A stretch of DNA of 64,000 nt from Antedon bifida (lineage: Eukaryota > Echinodermata > Crinoidea > Comatulida > Antedonidae): the NCBI GenBank assembly GCA_963402885.1, contig OY727097.1:25165401-25229400 (forward strand). Reading direction: 5' to 3'. This document shows positions 10,001 through 27,973 of this stretch, one piece after another. The notes under the pieces were generated by a model. That model was given only the letters and a program-made list of their open reading frames with translations, was not told the DNA's origin and did not search any database. The position numbers were made by a program, and so were the translations under genes. Every line of letters starts with the position of its first letter. Within the stretch, counting starts at the first letter, position 1.

Positions 10001-13000
10001 AAAGATCAGATTGTAACTATCAACCGCCTATCAAATTGTATGCTTATTTATTACAGGAATTACATGAAAGGTCTCTATCAGTACAACTCAACAACAGTGT
10101 CTGTTCCACGAATAATTCAACATGTCCAGTATTTGCCCCTCGACCTGGTGTCACAACACTTCATGAATATTCAACAGTTTCCGGAGAGGATGTACGCAAC
10201 AACCTGTCTAAAGATACTGCAGAATTGAAACATACCAAAAGGGTGTGGGACCTGTGCGTCGCCCTCTGGGGCCACTTACCAAATGATGAGGATAATGAAG
10301 AAGGTAGGGTGCATGTTATAATTTATTTATTTTATTGTCGAGATACATTGATATGTTTTTTGTTTTTTTTTTAATTGCACATGGAATTGTCAGTGCTGTA
10401 CATTATTCTTTACTTTAAACTAGAAAAGAATAGGTAATACAAATTTTACCAACAAGATTTTGTACAGTAGGGCATATACTTCACATAACCTGATTTTAAA
10501 TTCCTGTGAATTTCTGTTATTTTTAGTTATTTAATACATAACTAGTGCACTGTATTTTGTTTTCTGTGGATTTTGTAAAAGTTTGTATGTTTATAGGTTT
10601 CTAGCTATATATGTAAACAAAACATTACTACTACAGCTTTAGCTATAGGATCTACATGTTAGGGGGTGGGTCAGGGTTCAAAGGTCATACTGTATTGTTG
10701 ATCTATGTTGCTCGTTTTGCAGGCTTCACATCTGATGAGTATGCAAGGCAGAAGGCCAGAAGGCAGGCTTTGACACAATGGTTGACATCATCAGTTACTG
10801 ATCAAGTTATGAAAGAAGTCCAAGATTATAAATATCAAGTAAGCAGTAGCCAGTAATTATCAAACAGTACTAATAATATTAAGCATTCAAAAATCAATTT
10901 GCCAATATATAGCATGCTTACCAAAAGAATCGCATCCAATTCTGATTCAAATTTGTTTGAATATAATTCTAGGAAAATGGCAATGTGCGAGGTGTCCTAT
11001 CCTTATTAAGTGGTGGTCTGGTTGCAGAGGCTAGCAAGCTGGCTCTGGATTCTGGTGAGCCTAGGCTAGCAATGTTGACATCACAAGCAGAGGGATGTGA
11101 AAGGACCAGGCAGTTGATTACAGAACAACTTCTATATTGGAAACAAGTAAAGGTAGTGTAGTATAGTTTGGTTTTTCATTCATTTGTTGTACGATCGTGA
11201 CTGTTGATGCTATTAAGAAAGGTGAAAACACACAGATCCCTACTTGGCATTGATGATGGTGCTTGTAGCCCAATACAACAGTCTTTATGTTTCTGCTTTT
11301 ACCTTTATTTATTTATCCAGTTGTGATATCACTTTGTTATCAAACCTAGGTGATGTGCCCATATATGGACACTACCATATTTGGGCACTCATACTTTTTT
11401 TTGTCAAACTAGTTTGATATTCTAGGCTAGGCTTTAGAGATAATAGAAACCTTTTTTCAGAGTGGATAGATATTTGTAATTAAAAATGTGATGTGCCCAT
11501 ATATGGACATGATTATGCCCATATCTTATATGGGCACTCGCACTTTTTTTACCAAACTTGTTTGATAGTCTAGACTACTGTAGGCTTTAGAGATAATAGA
11601 AACATATTTTCCAGAGTGGATAGATTTTTTAAATTTATGTTTTGCTTATACTGTATGTGTTTTATGGGTATATGAATGATTTTAGCTCTTTCTGAATGAA
11701 TTATAAGCACAATCTTTGTTTAGGCCTTTAGCTCTGTCTACACTATCAAACTTTATGTGACAAAAAAATGTGAGTGTCAATATATAGACATGATGATGTT
11801 ATATCACTACCATATTTGGGCATATCACTACCATATTTGGGCATCACATTTTTTTTGTCAAAAATAGTTTGATACAATGATAGTGTAGACAGAGGTTTAA
11901 AATGTGTGAATTGGGTATAAGTAATTGATTTTATTTCACTACTTACAGGCCGACTGTTACATCAGTAAAGAACATCTGTGCGTGTATGCTCTTCTAGGTG
12001 GTCAACTTGTATGGCCTTCATCAATTGGTAACATAAACACTTGTGAGGAGATGGACTGGAAAAGAGCATTAGCTATTCACCTTTGGTACGTTAAAGCCCT
12101 AATAATATAATTTTTCCCAATAAACAGAACAGATGTAAATAAATCACTTGAATAAAAGATATTTGTAAACTGTTTTGGTCAACTACTGCATTGATACACT
12201 GGTTCTCGTCAGATTACGGAAGTTAAGCAACTTTGGGGCCGGTTGTGTTCTGGTGGGAGACCATCTGGGAATAGCAGCAGGTTCTGTATATACCGTAGAG
12301 TGATCGTGTAATGATAATATTGGAATAATATGTGATAGGCATGGGGTTGAGGCTATCTGTACCATACTAATTGCATCCTTAGGCAAGATGCTTTACTCTC
12401 ATTGCCTCGACCTTTCGGATGGGATGTAAAGCTGTTGGTCCAATGTACATATAGTGCAATTTAAAGACTTGGTACACTATTTGAAAAAAATAGGGATCGT
12501 CTCCCGATGTACTTAGCTGATGTGTGTCCGTGGAGGGCCTAATCCTATTTCCTCAGTTTCCAGTTAAGCTTGAAGAAGGTCTGTGCCCCGCTGTGTGTAA
12601 ACTCCAGAGTTTAGCTAAGCAATTTGAAAGATGTATAGTTACTAATATTTTATATTGTATTTTTGGATGTTGTTTTCAAGTAAAAACAAGTTGAAAGTTG
12701 ACATACCTGTTATTTTTTATTGTAGGTATTTTTGTCCACCTACTGCATCTATATCAGAAGCGTTGTCAGAATATGAAAAAGGAGCTATGGTAAATGGTTT
12801 TTTTGCTGTAAAAAAGTGTATTAAGAGGTTTAATATACAGTGTAAACCCATTAAGGGATGTATACTTATGCTAAATGGGTGTCTCAAAAGAGGGGTGTCC
12901 CAAAAAATGGGGTGTCCCAGAAGATGGGTGTCCCAAAAGAGGAGGGGTCTCCCAGAAGAGAGGTTTCCCAAAAAAAGGGCTGTCCCAGAGGATGGGTGTC

Positions 13001-20056: not shown

Positions 20057-21265
20057 TCACCTTTTGCGTCTAAATTTGTCAAAAGCTTTTATCACTTCTG
20101 TCCGGAAGGAATGATGAAATACCCATACTAGTATAGGAGTGATGAACGAATCTATTGATATTAATATGTGTGACATGTACCACAGTCTATTAATATGTCT
20201 CGTGCCGTTAGCTGCTTTCGTGCCATTATTCGTGCCGTTAGCTGCTTTCGTGCCGTTAGCTGCTTTCGTGCCGTTAGCTGCTCTTGTGCCGTTAGCTGCT
20301 ATCATGCCGTTAGCTGCTCTTGTGCCGTTAGCTGCTATCATGCCGTTATCTGCTATCGTGCCGTTAGCTGCTATCATGCCGTTATCTGCTATCATGCCGT
20401 TATCTGCTATTGTGCCGTTAACTGCTGTTGTGTCGTTGGCTGCTAATGTGCCGTTAGCTGCTAATGTGCTGTTAGCTGCTATCATGCCGTTATCTGCTAT
20501 TGTGCCGTTAACTGCTGTTGTGTCGTTGGCTGCTAATGTGCCGTTAGCTGCTAATGTGCTGTTAGCTGCTATCATGCCGTTATCTGCTATTGTGCCGTTA
20601 GCTGTTGTTATGCCACTAACAACAACCAATGCTATAAACCATAATGTTAATATAGTATTTCTTGTAAGCGTAAATAAAGCGATCCGGTAACTGAGTTGAA
20701 ACGTGCGATTCCTTTGTCCAGAAGTCCTAAAATAGCTTGACCTTATACCGCGTACAATTTTAACTCCAAATGTGTAATTAGCAAGTACAATTAAAAGATA
20801 CACGCAGTGAATAAAAATATTTTTATAACTTTTATAAATATTTATTGTTACAACTAAACAATATTCAATTGAGGCCATAGCAGCGCTCACAATCCAAATA
20901 CTCACTATTATTTTCGAGTACAACTTTTTCGTGTATATTACTTTGTATTGTGTCGGGGCTTTAACAACCGCTATGTATCTCTCTATTGAAATGTTTAGAA
21001 TAGTTAGTAATGTTGATATGAACATAAGATTAAAATAAAGCACCAGTTCTTTATGAAATTTCCTATTGTTGCTTATATCCCTCATTAAAATATTCAAGAG
21101 GAACCCCAAACACCGTAATACTTCGGATACGGTTAGGTGACAAAGTAATATGTTGTTCTTCCGCAAGTTCCTCAGGAGAATGATCGCACCAGCAACCAAA
21201 CCGTTGGTCAGTATGTCGACAGACAATAAGCACTTCAAAGACACCTTAGCTTCTAGAGGAAGCAT
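20057..21265 (-). CDS. Orphan class A GPCR 1 with giant sequon-repeat extracellular loop 3
   Basis: 402-aa intronless receptor. Approximate helices: TM1 10-32, TM2 39-61, TM3 74-101 ending in ERY (95-97), TM4 117-139 with the conserved Trp in SIWIVS, TM5 149-172, TM6 196-218, TM7 362-383, then an amphipathic helix-8-like HHSFRTEVIKAFDKF. Between TM6 and TM7, residues about 219-355 are tandem hexapeptides of the AANGTK/IADNGM type. I count 17 NXS/T sequons. By standard topology this loop faces outside. Non-canonical points: Glu48 where TM2 normally has Asp, no CWxP in TM6, and TPILVW instead of NPxxY in TM7. The start is shared with GPCR 2 (MLPLEAKVSL). Three paralogs follow upstream on the same strand. 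Ligand and G protein are unknown; I cannot assign a named subfamily. Confidence 0.85.
   Translation of the reverse strand: MLPLEAKVSLKCLLSVDILTNGLVAGAIILLRNLRKNNILLCHLTVSEVLRCLGFLLNILMRDISNNRKFHKELVLYFNLMFISTLLTILNISIERYIAVVKAPTQYKVIYTKKLYSKIIVSIWIVSAAMASIEYCLVVTINIYKSYKNIFIHCVYLLIVLANYTFGVKIVRGIRSSYFRTSGQRNRTFQLSYRIALFTLTRNTILTLWFIALVVVSGITTANGTIADNGMIAANSTLAANGTLAANDTTAVNGTIADNGMIAANSTLAANGTLAANDTTAVNGTIADNGMIADNGMIAANGTIADNGMIAANGTRAANGMIAANGTRAANGTKAANGTKAANGTNNGTKAANGTRHINRLWYMSHILISIDSFITPILVWVFHHSFRTEVIKAFDKFRRKR
20203..20613 (-). repeat. 18-bp coding minisatellite in GPCR 1 loop 3
   Basis: About 23 units of 18 bp on the coding strand, each giving six residues around A-A-N-G-T-K/R/I/L. 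A higher-order 90-bp block (five units; plus-strand 20401-20490) is repeated almost exactly at 20491-20580. One short unit (NNGT) breaks the periodicity without changing frame. No reading frame of the array contains a stop. Confidence 0.9.
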
Positions 21266-22780
21266 AGTGTTAATCCTTGGTTAAATCTATTACTGTAATA
21301 GTTCGTTTAATGCGATTTAAGCTACTAGTGAGTGATGCGTTCTAAAGCTTGGTTCCCACTAGAAAAAAACTACAACGCAACGCGCAACTCAAGAAAATAC
21401 TCTTAATGAGAAGTTAAATCATCACTGTTGCGACGTACGACAAACAAACCCCGCAAAAAACGTTGGCGAGTATACGTCTGCGGCACCGTGGTTACGTCGT
21501 CGGCTCCCACTTTTAACACGCAATGTTATGTTTGGAACGTTGCGTCTACGTCCTTGCGTTGCGTCCTAGCCAGGCTTAAAAGATATCAAAGAGTTGAACG
21601 CAATGTTAACTTATTTCCAGAGGTTTCTTCGTAGGCCTACTTTGCACTTGGCTGTCAATTGGTTGCACAATGTGCTACTCTATATAGCAGTATTACATAC
21701 CATAATCGCCGTTGATGCTCGGTGATGTTGCTAAACAGTAATTGTGTCACGCTTAATATCGTCTTTGTTAAAAAAAAAATATATATATATATTAGTACTG
21801 TATATCTTTTATAATATAAGAGAATATTTAAAAATGAGAGAATATTAACCACCACTACTGGTGCACGTTTCCAGCGGTAGTCTAAGTCATCTGATGTCGT
21901 TAAAGTAAGTTGATGTTACACTGCGTTATCGCTATCGGCTACCGGTACCTAAATTAATAAATTTGTCTTTCCGGACCTCGTACATTTTTAATGATAATAT
22001 CAATAACAGTGTGCAGTTGGTAATATACTTATGGAAGGTTAGATATTCGTTAGGTACTACTTTATGCGACGCTGAAAATGCGCAACCAGTCAGAACGGCT
22101 TATAAGCCTATTGCCAATGATCTTTTTTCAAGTTCAATGTATTCAGCCAAAATTAAAATTAAATACAAAAGTACAATATTATATGAATTAGGATTACGTC
22201 ATTTTTAACATTTTTTGCTCGAACTGCGACCGTTTGTCAATGCAATTCAACTTTATTTCGTCCACATAGGAAAATATTTTGCAGGCGTTAGTCTTGTCGA
22301 TTATTGTTGATCAAAATCTTCATGATGGATAGAGCTAGAAGTTAAATATGAGAACATTTGTGCAAGGAAATATGTAGATTAAAGTATAAAGTATTGTGAC
22401 CCACTCATACTAGTGCACACTACTAGAAATCGCAAAGTGCGAGTGAGTGCTGCGAGCAGATCTAACGTAGTTTTGATGATAGGGCCAAGCCCTCCTATAT
22501 ACAAACAACCCGAATGTCTATATTATAACTCTTCTCATTGGATAACAAATGTAGTGTATCGTCGCCTGCAATAAATGATTTCACCCGCCAAGAGCCGTAA
22601 ACATGCCTAGCTCGTCTTAGGCCAATGTTTTGTAGTCAAACAATGAACTTTCGGATCTGAAAGCAATGAAGCGTGACGGGGTGTCAAATTACTGTGAACA
22701 TGAATAGCTGCTCTTGATGTTCTCGTTAGTCGTTTGTAGACCTACAGAAAAGTATCACCATGTAAGAATGAAAGTACAAT
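21266..22780. other. Spacer between GPCR 1 and GPCR 2
   Basis: No supported gene. The first about 150 bp (5' flank of GPCR 1), including GCTACTAGTGAGTGATGCGT and a family D MITE end at 21345, is repeated in the 5' flank of GPCR 2 (23771-23920). TTTCCGGACCTCGTACATTT at 21967 is also repeated near 24037. These are traces of segmental duplication. Confidence 0.65.
21345..21580. mobile_element. MITE family D copy in GPCR 1 upstream flank
   Basis: Starts AGCTTGGTTCCCACTAGAAA and ends with TTGCGTTGCGTCCTAGCC and GGCTTAAA. The interior ACAACGCAACGCGCAACTCA is shared with the duplicated flank at 23831-23888, where the right half is lost. Confidence 0.55.
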
Positions 22781-23755
22781 CTAATTTCGCTCTATCCTGG
22801 TCTTTCTAAATTTGTGAAAAGCTTTTATCACTTCTCTCCGGAAGGAATGGTGAAAGGTCCATACTAATATAGGAGTGATGAACGAATCTATTGATATTAA
22901 TATATGCATCATGTGATGACTGATCCACCATTCTGTCTTGTCGTTTGCTGCTGATACCGTGCCGTTTGTTAATACCGTGCCGTTTGCTGATACCGTGCCG
23001 TTTGCTGCTACCGTGCCGTTTGCTGCTGCCGTGCCGTTAGATGCTATCGTACCATTAGACATGGGTTCATAATCAGCATAATGTGGGTCAATTACTGCAG
23101 GGACAACAAACAATACGATAAACGATAATGTTAATAAAGTATTTCTTGTCAGCGTAAATAAAGCAATTCGGTAACTAAGTTGAAACGTGCGATTCCTTTG
23201 TCCAGAAGTTCTAAAATAGCTTGACCTTATACCACGAACAATTTTAACTCCAAATGTATAATTAGCAAGTATAATCAAAATATACATACTGTGAATAAAA
23301 ATATCTCCATCTGGATAACAAAACTTGACAGCTAGACAATAGTCAAGTAAGATAATAGAAGTGCTCACAATCCAAATGCCCACTATTATTTTCGAGTACA
23401 ACTTTTTCGTGTATATTACTTTGTATTGGGTCGGGGCTTTAACAACCGCTATGTATCTTTCTATTGAAATGTTCAGAATAGTTAGTAAAGTCGATATGAA
23501 CATGAAGTTTTTAAAACAAAAGATTACCGGTGTATGACAGTCACTGTCGCCGCTGTGCATACCGTTGTCATTGGACACAGAATATAGAAGAAACCCAAAA
23601 CATCGTATTACTTCGGATACGGTTAGGTGACAAAGTAGTATGTTGTTCTTCCGCAAGTTCCTAAGGAGAATGATCGCACCAGCAACCAAACCGTTGGTCA
23701 GTATGTCGACAGACAATAAGAACACCAAAGACACCTTAGCTTCTAGAGGTAGCAT
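22781..23755 (-). CDS. Orphan class A GPCR 2 with short sequon-repeat loop 3
   Basis: 324-aa intronless paralog of GPCR 1. The two share long identical stretches in TM1-ICL1 (NGLVAGAIILLRNLRKNNIL), TM3-ICL2 (LTILNISIERYIAVVKAPTQ) and ICL3. ERY is at 99-101. The TM2-TM3 loop differs from GPCR 1, with SNDNGMHSGDSDCH. Loop 3 (about 233-268) has six NGT sequons in hexapeptide units (ASNGTA, AANGTV and similar), against 17 in GPCR 1. TM7 has SIDSFITPILVW and the tail is basic. Membrane receptor by family; ligand unknown. Confidence 0.85.
   Translation of the reverse strand: MLPLEAKVSLVFLLSVDILTNGLVAGAIILLRNLRKNNILLCHLTVSEVIRCFGFLLYSVSNDNGMHSGDSDCHTPVIFCFKNFMFISTLLTILNISIERYIAVVKAPTQYKVIYTKKLYSKIIVGIWIVSTSIILLDYCLAVKFCYPDGDIFIHSMYILIILANYTFGVKIVRGIRSSYFRTSGQRNRTFQLSYRIALFTLTRNTLLTLSFIVLFVVPAVIDPHYADYEPMSNGTIASNGTAAANGTVAANGTVSANGTVLTNGTVSAANDKTEWWISHHMMHILISIDSFITPILVWTFHHSFRREVIKAFHKFRKTRIERN
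22951..23058 (-). repeat. 18-bp coding minisatellite in GPCR 2 loop 3
   Basis: Six units of the GCCGTTTGCTGCTACCGT type (plus strand), each encoding an NGT sequon. Same unit length and register as the GPCR 1 array. Confidence 0.85.
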
Positions 23756-24859
23756 AGTGTTAATCCTGAGCTATTTTATGTATTGTTCGTTTAATGTGAT
23801 TATTAAGCTACTAGTGAGTGATGCGTTCTAAAGCTTGATTCCCACTAGAAAAAAACTACAACGCAACGCGCAACTCAAGAAAATACTCTTCCAACAATTG
23901 TACATCCCCCCTCTTAATGAGAAGTGGATTAATCATTGGTTAAATATATAACTGTAATGAGATATTGATATTGATGATATATTAATTTTTCGTTTTAGTG
24001 CATTATGGCTGTGGGTCACTGAAATTGAATTAAATTTTCCGGACATCGTACATTTTTAATGATAATGTTATTAACAGACTTTACTGTTGGTAATCATATA
24101 CTTTTAGTTGGTCTATTAAGCGCAACCAATCAGATCTCAGAAATGTTCGTTACGTGCGAATTAAAAAAAATGCTTATGGCAGTAAGTGTATAAAGTTCAA
24201 TTTATTCAGCCAAAATTATAATATACAAAAGCATAATATTTTTAATTAAGATGACGTCATAGTTAACGTTTTAGCACCTGAGTGAGTGGCCGAGCGGTTA
24301 AGACAGTGGAACCGTACGTAGCCATAACATCGGCAAGGGTTCAAGGCTCACTCACTCCATTTTGTTTTCGTGGTAGAACGTGACTTCTCCGATAAGGACT
24401 ATAAACCGTAGTGGGAGATTTGGAATATGAATACGGTTATGACAATAAGTGTATTAAAGTTCAATTCATTCAGAAAAAATTATAATATACAAAAGCACAA
24501 TATATATATTTAATTAAGATGACATCATTTTAAAAGTGTTAGCTCCTGAGTGCATGCGTATAAGCTGCCGCTTTAGATTCGCACGAACAAATTCGCCAGT
24601 GGAAAATCAACTTAAGAAAACACTTTCCAGAGAAACAAACGAAACGAAATATATTAAAACCACGGCCAATTCCTCTTCAGGAAACACCCCTTTTAAGGGG
24701 ACAATCTGTTCGAGTGCCAAAGGCGTCCCAATACAGGCGGTTCTACTGCAAATAAGTTGGCAACTGAGACTTGAACTCGCTGTATTGTGCCCCATTATAC
24801 AGACTTGTTCACATCGTATGTTCTTTGCGTTTCACACTAGTTACTAGTACAGAAAAAAA
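23756..24859. other. Spacer between GPCR 2 and GPCR 3
   Basis: No supported gene. It holds the duplicated flank of GPCR 2 and a SINE head at 24285-24415. ATTCAATTTATTCAGCCAAA (about 24197) and a similar TTCAATTCATTCAG (about 24460) flank the SINE as direct repeats with shared downstream sequence. Confidence 0.6.
24285..24415 (+). mobile_element. SINE head, tRNA-Ser/Leu type
   Basis: GAGTGAGTGGCCGAGCGGTT (A box) and ATCGGCAAGGGTTCAAGGCT (B box), then GAACGTGACTTCTCCGATAA. Same family as 2900-3205 but truncated after about 130 bp. Confidence 0.7.
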
Positions 24860-25756
24860 TTACATAAAGTTGCGTCTACATCTGTAAAAAGCCTGTATTA
24901 CTTCTCTCCTGAAGGAATGATGAAACGCCCATACTAATATAGGAGTGATGAACGAATCTATTGATATTAATATGTGTGACATGTACCTAATCGGTGGTTT
25001 CCGAGCATCTGGTAATGTGCCGTTAGCTGTGTCAGGACAATTATGACCACCAGGACTGACTTTTGTTAGTTTAACAGCAAGCAATGCTATGAACGCCAAT
25101 GTTAATATAGTATTTCTTGTCAGGGTAAATAAAGAAATTCGGTAACTGAGTTGAAACGTGCGATTCCTTTGTCCAGAAGTTCTAAAATAGCTTGATCTTA
25201 TACCGCGTACAATTTTAACTCCAAATGTGTAATTAGCAAGTACAATTAAAAGATACACGCAGTGAATAAAAATATGTTGTAAACTGTTTGTTACAACTAA
25301 ACAATATTCAATTGAGGCCATAGCAGCGCTCACAATCCAAATGCCCACTATTATTTTCAAGTACAACTTTTTCGTGTATATTACTTTGTATTGTGTCGGG
25401 GCTTTAACAACAGCTATGTATCTCTCTATTGAAATGTTCAGAATAGTTAGTAAAGTCGATATAAACACAATGTTTTTAAAGCAAAACAGTGACACGAATG
25501 GCTTATCATGACAACCTTTAGGCAGATTATCTTTTCTCTTCTTCATGAATATTAAATGTACAAAAAACCCAAAACACCGTATTACTTCGGATACGGTTAG
25601 GTGACAAAGTAATATGTTGTTCTTCCGCAAGTTCCTAAGGAGAATGATCGCACCAGCAACCAAACCGTTGGTCAGCATGTCGACAGACATTAAGCACATT
25701 AAAGACACGACCATCTCATCAGCTTTTGATGTAATGTTAACGTTTGATGGGCTCAT
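24860..25756 (-). CDS. Orphan class A GPCR 3
   Basis: 298-aa intronless paralog with ERY at 111-113 and the same TM1-ICL1, ICL2 and ICL3 signatures as GPCR 1 and 2. The N-terminus is longer and different (MSPSNVNITSKADEM), with a possible sequon at Asn7. Loop 3 is short and contains a single TANGT sequon, matching one unit of the arrays in GPCR 1 and 2. TM4-TM5 is almost identical to GPCR 1 (AAMASIEYCLVVT), while the loop before TM3 is unique. No stop or frameshift is seen, so it is probably functional. Ligand unknown. Confidence 0.85.
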   Translation of the reverse strand: MSPSNVNITSKADEMVVSLMCLMSVDMLTNGLVAGAIILLRNLRKNNILLCHLTVSEVIRCFGFFVHLIFMKKRKDNLPKGCHDKPFVSLFCFKNIVFISTLLTILNISIERYIAVVKAPTQYKVIYTKKLYLKIIVGIWIVSAAMASIEYCLVVTNSLQHIFIHCVYLLIVLANYTFGVKIVRGIRSSYFRTSGQRNRTFQLSYRISLFTLTRNTILTLAFIALLAVKLTKVSPGGHNCPDTANGTLPDARKPPIRYMSHILISIDSFITPILVWAFHHSFRREVIQAFYRCRRNFM

Positions 25757-27088: not shown

Positions 27089-27973
27089 TCAGTTTTTAGA
27101 AAAGGCGTTCTTAATTTCTTTTTTAAAGAATGGGTGAAAATTCCAAACCAGTATTGGAGTTAAGAACGAATCTATTGACATAACAATGTTCATTACGATA
27201 AGAAATGGAAATTCCCCCAGATTAGGTTCGATGTTTGGTTTGAAATTTGAATACGGTGACGGTTGCCGGACGGGGCCATTTGCTTTTTTGGGGAGTTTTT
27301 CTTTGTATAATGAAATACTATCAATAATATACAGTGTTATTAACACAGATATAAATATAGCGCTTCTTATCATGGCAAATAAAGCAATTCGGTAACTAAG
27401 TTTAAAAGTGCGATTCCTTTTACCAGATGTTCTAAAATAGCTTGACCTTATACCGCGTACAATTTTAACACCAAGTACAAAGTTTACAAACACAATTAAA
27501 CAACAAAGGGTGAAATTCACATGTCGGAATTCGAATCTACAAGTTGTAAATAACAGTTCAAGTGACGTCGCAGAAGCGCTTACAACCCAAATACCCACTA
27601 TTATTTTCGTGTATAATTTGTTCGTGTATATTACTTTGTATTGCGCCGGTGCTTTGATGACAGCTACGTATCTCTCTATCGAAATGTTGAGAATAGTAAG
27701 TGATGTTGACATAAGCATGAACAATTTAAAGTAATACAATGTTGCAATATTAGTTGGTATTGTCTTTGCATTACTACAATCGTCACACAAGATAATAAAA
27801 ACAATAAGTCCAGAACATCTTAATATATCGGATACGGTGACGTGCCAAAGGAGTATGTTATTTCGTCTCCGCAAACCTCGTACAAGAATGATGGCAAAGG
27901 CAACCAGAGCGTTTAACAATATGACAATAGAGGCAAAGCACGTCAGGCATATCTTGGTCGTTAGAGTGTACAT
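27089..27973 (-). CDS. Orphan class A GPCR 4, diverged cluster member
   Basis: 294-aa intronless receptor, clearly homologous to GPCR 1-3 (LTILNISIERYVAVIKAP, GVKIVRGIRSSYFRTSG, SIDSFLTPILVW) but more diverged. ERY is at 100-102. It keeps Asp at the TM2 position (HVTVSD, Asp49) where the other three have Glu, so it is closer to the general class A pattern. Loop 3 (KLPKKANGPVRQ and following) is proline- and asparagine-rich without repeats. ANGP there resembles the repeat unit but is not a glycosylation sequon because Pro follows Gly. Ligand unknown. Confidence 0.85.
   Translation of the reverse strand: MYTLTTKICLTCFASIVILLNALVAFAIILVRGLRRRNNILLWHVTVSDILRCSGLIVFIILCDDCSNAKTIPTNIATLYYFKLFMLMSTSLTILNISIERYVAVIKAPAQYKVIYTNKLYTKIIVGIWVVSASATSLELLFTTCRFEFRHVNFTLCCLIVFVNFVLGVKIVRGIRSSYFRTSGKRNRTFKLSYRIALFAMIRSAIFISVLITLYIIDSISLYKEKLPKKANGPVRQPSPYSNFKPNIEPNLGEFPFLIVMNIVMSIDSFLTPILVWNFHPFFKKEIKNAFSKN

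Follow-up and report, generated by a model that had tools for sequence, protein, structure and literature searches.

Neighbouring copies of lineage-specific Rhodopsin GPCRs occur in the sponge Amphimedon queenslandica, where 2 to 8 genes lie together, share 51-74% identity and cannot be assigned to known subfamilies (PMC4302439). The extracellular loop between TM6 and TM7 (ECL3) has been studied in other receptors of this kind. In odorant receptors ECL3 contributes to ligand recognition (PMC9604345). In the Y1 receptor, Nanoluc was placed in ECL3; saturable tracer binding was kept and the peptide agonist pNPY no longer displaced the tracer (PMC9667534), which indicates that ECL3 can accommodate a large insert and that such an insert can act as a gate.

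Here we describe a receptor gene of the crinoid Antedon bifida whose ECL3 is occupied by a tandem repeat array. It lies in a stretch of 64,000 nucleotides (contig OY727097.1, positions 25,165,401 to 25,229,400), the whole of which is referred to below as the window. The locus resembles the Amphimedon queenslandica clusters in that its receptors stand in tandem, share 49-76% identity (A or B versus the others) and are unassignable to a subfamily. Loop arrays set it apart, since the main text of the sponge paper uses the terms loop, tandem, intron and glycosylation 0 times and loop arrays are therefore not described there.

Receptor A and its relatives

Receptor A stands in a tandem row of four sister genes (A, B, C and D) on the minus strand; the first-pass annotation of this DNA described A and left its sisters unmentioned. 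The genes and the landmarks of A are as follows.

20057..21265, minus strand: receptor A, an intronless divergent class A-like GPCR of 402 aa (open frame, Pfam 7tm_1, hydropathy)
20117..20173, minus strand: TM7 hydropathy core of A, residues 365-383, with the motif DSFITPILVW (hydropathy)
20600..20656, minus strand: TM6 hydropathy core of A, residues 204-222 (hydropathy)
20975..20983, minus strand: ERY motif at the TM3 end of A (sequence alignment)
21266..21404, minus strand: 5' flank of A common with B, a possible promoter or leader (141-column alignment, 89.4% identity)
22781..23755, minus strand: receptor B, a tandem sister of 324 aa (open frame, Pfam, alignment)
24860..25756, minus strand: receptor C, a sister of 298 aa with an ECL3 of ~25 residues (open frame, hydropathy)
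27089..27973, minus strand: receptor D, a sister of 294 aa with an ECL3 of ~43 residues that reads NGP and has no sequon there (open frame, hydropathy)

The frame of A begins with an ATG at 21265 and continues for 402 uninterrupted codons to a stop codon at 20057-20059; re-reading it from ATG to stop returned the coordinates, frame and sequon count of the first-pass annotation. Against Pfam 7tm_1 (PF00001) A scores 32.9 bits (6.1e-08), with its best stretch at residues 21-139 only. B, C and D score 40.1, 40.9 and 48.0 bits, and three further relatives, E, F and G, score 34.1, 37.3 and 45.0, so that all seven exceed the gathering cut-off of 30.5. E, F and G lie at G000:C10:25068720-25073158, ~112 kb from A on the opposite strand, and came to light when the genome was queried with B and with one of its relatives. 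Beyond A-G, the other receptor matches listed, among the best candidates scored, are at most 32% identical. One scan each of bacterial/archaeal and viral contig collections confirmed no relatives. A search for the GFP family yielded no match, a result that is not evidence of its absence. The protein of A is 72% identical to B, 76% to C and 50% to D. The 5' flank shared by A and B has no counterpart within the 300-bp flank of either C or D, and no matches occur among the four 3' flanks.

Seven hydropathy peaks occur in each of the seven family proteins, as drawn by our own script, which keeps at most seven peaks and places helix ends approximately. ERY, at the E/DRY position ending TM3, is common to A-D and to E, F and G, and the TM4 tryptophan is kept in all seven. 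Together, the peaks, ERY and the Pfam score above cut-off agree with the initial description of A as a class A-like GPCR. CWxP and NPxxY are typical of class A receptors, not obligatory. Motif inspection finds no CWxP in TM6 of A-D and no NPxxY in TM7, which reads DSFITPILVW or DSFLTPILVW and keeps the P but not the N or Y; for want of these two motifs we treat the family as a divergent class A group. Residues 52-136 of A contain no cysteine, which precludes the usual TM3-ECL2 disulfide, and the pocket of A may differ from that of an ordinary class A receptor. In B and C, cysteines are present close to the upper end of TM3, and their disulfide pairing is putative.

Other features of the window include a protein kinase (PF00069; 8-1729, minus strand) and a Nup98 autopeptidase exon (PF04096; 4003-4449, plus strand). 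A 5S rRNA match at 12173-12289 (plus strand; 38.8 versus a gathering score of 38 bits) is possibly a 5S-derived element. A dispersed 21-bp motif, CCCAAATATGGTAGTGATATG, has 15 matches in the window at up to 3 mismatches versus none in 100 shuffles; it often occurs in adjacent pairs, at places such as 8890, 11800, 34258, 55879 and 62902.

The repeat array in ECL3

Three of the four sisters encode N-X-T sequons in ECL3, in arrays or as a single copy.

20201..20599, minus strand: ECL3 array of A, 23 units with 17 N-X-T sequons and 6 NGM units (TRF, unit reading)
22958..23056, minus strand: ECL3 array of B, six NGT sequons on an 18-bp unit related to that of A (TRF, unit reading)
25016..25024, minus strand: single NGT in ECL3 of C, a seed or remnant (loop DNA alignment)

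The array of A is translated as 133 residues of hexapeptide units, from N223 to T355. TRF reports a period of 18 bp at 20227-20604 (20.9 copies, 84% matches) and a second period of 90 bp at 20227-20608 (4.2 copies). The 22 full units have 11 distinct sequences, and the sole unit of odd length is 12 bp, a multiple of three that keeps the frame. Units 1-5 equal units 6-10 letter for letter, an exact 90-bp duplication of the sort that slippage or unequal exchange leaves when entire blocks are involved. The array is thus a head-to-tail, in-frame coding minisatellite with higher-order duplication. The strand opposite the array (20118-20690, plus strand) is also open, for 190 aa with VPLAA-type repeats, most simply because the 18-bp unit is stop-free.

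Between its hydropathy cores the TM6-TM7 loop of A measures 142 residues, or 138 with two other helix-end choices, and the length of 137 first proposed was a fair estimate beside this range of 138-142 from three choices. TRF, unit reading and hydropathy also agree with the first-pass annotation on an 18-bp in-frame repeat, 17 sequons and a position in ECL3. Its proposal that the loop changes by whole in-frame units is in keeping with the sisters, which hold 17, 6, 1 and 0 ECL3 sequons, and its view of the length as abnormal stands against the baseline below. By hydropathy, ECL3 has 142 residues in A, 58 in B, 25 in C and 43 in D, with those sequon counts in the same order, and 1, 13 and 4 residues without sequons in E, F and G. 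The near absence of ECL3 in E, F and G makes the short-loop state the likely ancestral one. Counted between the anchors SYRI and DSF, the stretches are 180 (A), 96 (B), 63 (C) and 75 (D) residues, each in one open frame.

Compared with about 140 residues in A, ECL3 has 5-16 residues in the 54 other class A receptors of this genome that could be parsed, and holds a sequon in 3 of them. For this baseline, 60 receptors were fetched from a listing of at least 150 class A matches, strong canonical ones among them (890 candidates, of which 147 were scored), as the 40 best stop-free matches and 20 picked by hand, partly for long spans. Parsing needed a TM6 proline and NPxxY and worked for 54 of the 60, leaving out L061 and L072 (wrong proline taken) and L064, L066, L067 and L069 (no NPxxY parsed at the match end); two pairs of identical loops are included (L033 = L034; L047 = L054). 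Where parsed receptors had long matches, as in L025 (540 residues), the surplus length lay outside ECL3. Among the matches listed, 15 class A receptor matches form a tight cluster at G000:C7:6263997-6335140.

The 17 sequons compare with 1.3 expected per 137 residues, a figure based on the residue composition of all seven proteins of the family, including the array. A fairer chance unit is one repeat rather than the number of residues, and among random stop-free 18-mers of the window read in tandem, 4.2% hold a sequon. Of the 8 distinct arrays of the window with a period divisible by three and at least 3 copies, 2 hold sequons in a stop-free frame, both of them in the A and B receptor genes. 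In composition the array of A has 35 A, 24 N, 19 G and 19 T per 134 residues and no cysteine. Such a stretch would suit a disordered spacer or adhesion tether, with the hexapeptide acting by length or peptide contacts and any glycans incidental; we consider this improbable, because the only invariant residue is the N of the sequon. Of the adhesion and self-recognition roles raised in the first-pass annotation, no sign was seen.

At the DNA level, the loops of A and C have in common a 24-nt stretch, 22/24 matching and beginning ACAGCTAACGGCACA, which is the start of the array in A and is single in C. The A-C and A-B loop alignments were each reached by 0 of 300 shuffles; the weaker B-C alignment was reached by 5 of 300. 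That the ANGP of D is the same motif is not supported, since 297, 81 and 267 shuffles out of 300 did as well as the alignments of D with A, B and C. The 24-nt match and the single copy in C suggest that the array either expanded from a motif common to A, B and C that encodes a sequon or contracted to it in C. A dispersed satellite landing in the gene was rejected: a genome DNA search with the A array matched only itself, a result that rules out close copies only, as the search skips very common words and missed even the related B array. The array may instead be an intron read as coding, a reading opposed by the fact that each of the four sisters has a single frame running uninterrupted through the loop.

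Topology, sequons and constraint

Lysine and arginine are concentrated in the predicted inside loops, where they make up 24 of 87 residues in A versus 15 of 182 outside. The corresponding counts are 25/93 versus 3/98 in B, 21/86 versus 10/79 in C and 21/78 versus 10/83 in D. The position of ERY at the TM3 end of A fits the cytoplasmic side. Charge distribution and motif position put the array outside, a cytosolic array being judged unlikely on the same grounds, and on this topology N-glycosylation of the array is likely. The N-X-S/T sequons of A lie away from the membrane on the predicted lumenal side, a side assigned by charge and motif position only. With any of the three helix-end choices, fourteen of the 17 are separated from either helix by 14 residues or more. 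A separation of 14 residues is clear of the distance to a helix at which oligosaccharyltransferase fails. An NRT sequon in the predicted ICL3 (residue 186 of A), common to A-D, should be unused if the topology is right.

The units' N recurs at an unbroken six-residue spacing, over residues 223-343 in A and 234-264 in B; the pattern used to pick units requires N, and the unbroken spacing leaves no place for a skipped unit. The second unit residue in A is never P but always G, S or D. Six of the 23 units have M in place of T, a sequon loss that was copied by duplication. Among kinds of change in the sequon codons, 4 keep the sequon and 1 loses it, versus about 14 to 13 expected; this difference is not significant (P ~0.21, by hand) and gives no support for sequon-specific selection.

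Repeats elsewhere in the genome may also encode sequons. Stop-free frames with 32, 26 and 6 putative sequons occur in 3 of 8 other repeat loci read, which were found with the A array as the query and are no fair sample. One (L079, G000:C10:21790597-21791706) has an open frame of 438 aa whose repeats hold 32 sequons, and another (L086, C7:29675296) one of 213 aa whose repeats hold 26; both are putative genes. At L011:4138-5322 (minus strand, G000 C16 ~8.073 Mb) a Galactose-3-O-sulfotransferase frame (PF06990) is followed in the next open frame by six LNGTI(P/V) repeats and a basic tail, an NGT repeat near a probable gene. A role of the array as a sugar-coated lid is plausible. The 6 sequon losses in 23 units, the non-significant selection and the other genomic sequon arrays count against a strict glycan role.

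Constraint differs between the two faces of the receptor, which were split roughly at mid-membrane. In pairs among A, B and C, the inner halves have dS 0.19-0.22, dN 0.03-0.04 and dN/dS 0.14-0.19, and the outer halves dS 0.43-0.63, dN 0.34-0.46 and dN/dS 0.67-0.79. In pairs with D, dN/dS is 0.24-0.27 inside versus 0.64-0.74 outside, and in E, F and G it is 0.27-0.34 versus 0.56-0.66. An outer-half ratio below one is no proof of positive selection. The lower inner-half dS suggests gene conversion besides selection among A, B and C, a difference to which uncertain outer-half alignment may add. In one TM4-ECL2 block A equals C in 17/17 codons, and A and B share 6/20. The region 20057-25756 is accordingly a mosaic in which this block is identical in A and C while the N-terminus is common to A and B, suggesting gene conversion among the sisters.

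Over the 153 inner-half codons, A has 9 synonymous and 2 non-synonymous private changes, as expected of a gene still in use. With its inner half constrained and its outer half loose, A has the appearance of a functioning gene whose outer face changes fast. That A is instead a pseudogene, an unexpressed copy or an assembly artefact is very improbable: its 7tm_1 score is weak (32.9 bits against 30.5, over residues 21-139) and some class A motifs are missing, but it retains an open frame, the 9-to-2 pattern of private changes and a 5' flank common with B. Eleven distinct unit sequences are likewise not the product of a simple assembly error, and the exact duplication of units 1-5 as 6-10 is the part needing confirmation.

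A stronger rival to a functional array is a tolerated minisatellite, which would have grown by chance in a permissive loop of a weakly constrained outer face and, perhaps glycosylated, would have no role of its own. The outer-half dN/dS of 0.67-0.79 fits this account, non-synonymous changes predominate among the kinds seen in the array (I, L, R, K or T at codon 4), and the sequon is lost in 6 of 23 units. Repeats at 3 of the 8 other loci also read as sequon arrays, and the 4.2% of random stop-free 18-mers that hold a sequon would suffice to start one. The same account leaves aside that N is kept in every unit with its six-residue spacing unbroken in A and B, that the one copy in C likewise encodes a sequon, and that an ECL3 of 140 residues might disturb a receptor otherwise strongly constrained. 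We place its probability somewhat short of an even chance.

Proposed function and comparison with known systems

The explanation we put forward, with about as much belief as doubt, is that A is a working receptor whose slippage-grown, sugar-coated ECL3 acts sterically on ligand access. Its basis is observed, namely the gene frame, the array, the graded sisters and the inner-half constraint. A would belong to a small, tandemly duplicated branch of chemoreceptor-like class A receptors. A short ECL3 motif already coding one sequon (ANGT) would have been amplified by slippage and unequal exchange, in 18-bp units and 90-bp blocks that always kept the frame. The loop would face the ER lumen and then the outside, so that most of the 17 sequons could receive N-glycans. 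The result would be a flexible, alanine-rich, sugar-coated tether from TM6 to TM7 above the ligand entrance. Its likeliest effect would be steric, limiting the ligands or partners that reach the pocket while the G-protein-facing cytoplasmic half stays constant. If the array has any function, a steric filter is the most economical one.

A further step would be a hypermutable ECL3 N-glycan array that serves as an adjustable lid, with sisters and alleles carrying 0 to 17 or more glycans as steric filters over a constant signalling half; we regard this as unlikely. Access to the receptor would then be subject to contingency tuning, with a coding minisatellite as its means, about which we are equally doubtful. 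If the array is glycosylated, A would be a natural receptor whose TM6-TM7 loop is a long sugar-bearing stretch, and the sisters (17, 6, 1 and 0 sequons) would offer a ready length series for the gating of ligands by ECL3 size and glycans. It would also provide a case of a coding minisatellite that changes a receptor in whole steps. If the array is neutral, it still shows how much insertion ECL3 tolerates in a constrained gene. Among open-licence papers, preprints apart, the titles and abstract starts of the top matches revealed no repeat-bearing or sequon-array ECL3.

By sequence, the best PDB match of receptor B alone is CCR7, and those of an A-D profile are the cholecystokinin A receptor, GPR61 and GPR119, in alignments that, as shown, cover TM1-TM4. 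The family is like class A GPCRs in its seven hydropathy peaks, the TM1 N, the TM3 ERY, the TM4 W and the TM7 P. It is unlike them in having no CWxP and TPILV in place of NPxxY, and A in having no TM3 cysteine and an ECL3 of ~140 residues. Mucin repeats are mainly O-glycosylated. In yeast flocculins (PMC3995336) and in mucins such as MUC7 (PMC4997351), as in A, repeats are in frame and the number of units alters an extracellular stretch. Those repeats sit outside GPCR loops, whereas the array of A places N-sequons between two helices. The closest parallel in position is the Y1 receptor with luciferase in ECL3, which likewise carries a large extra stretch in this loop (PMC9667534); that insert is an engineered folded domain, whereas the array of A is a natural repeat.
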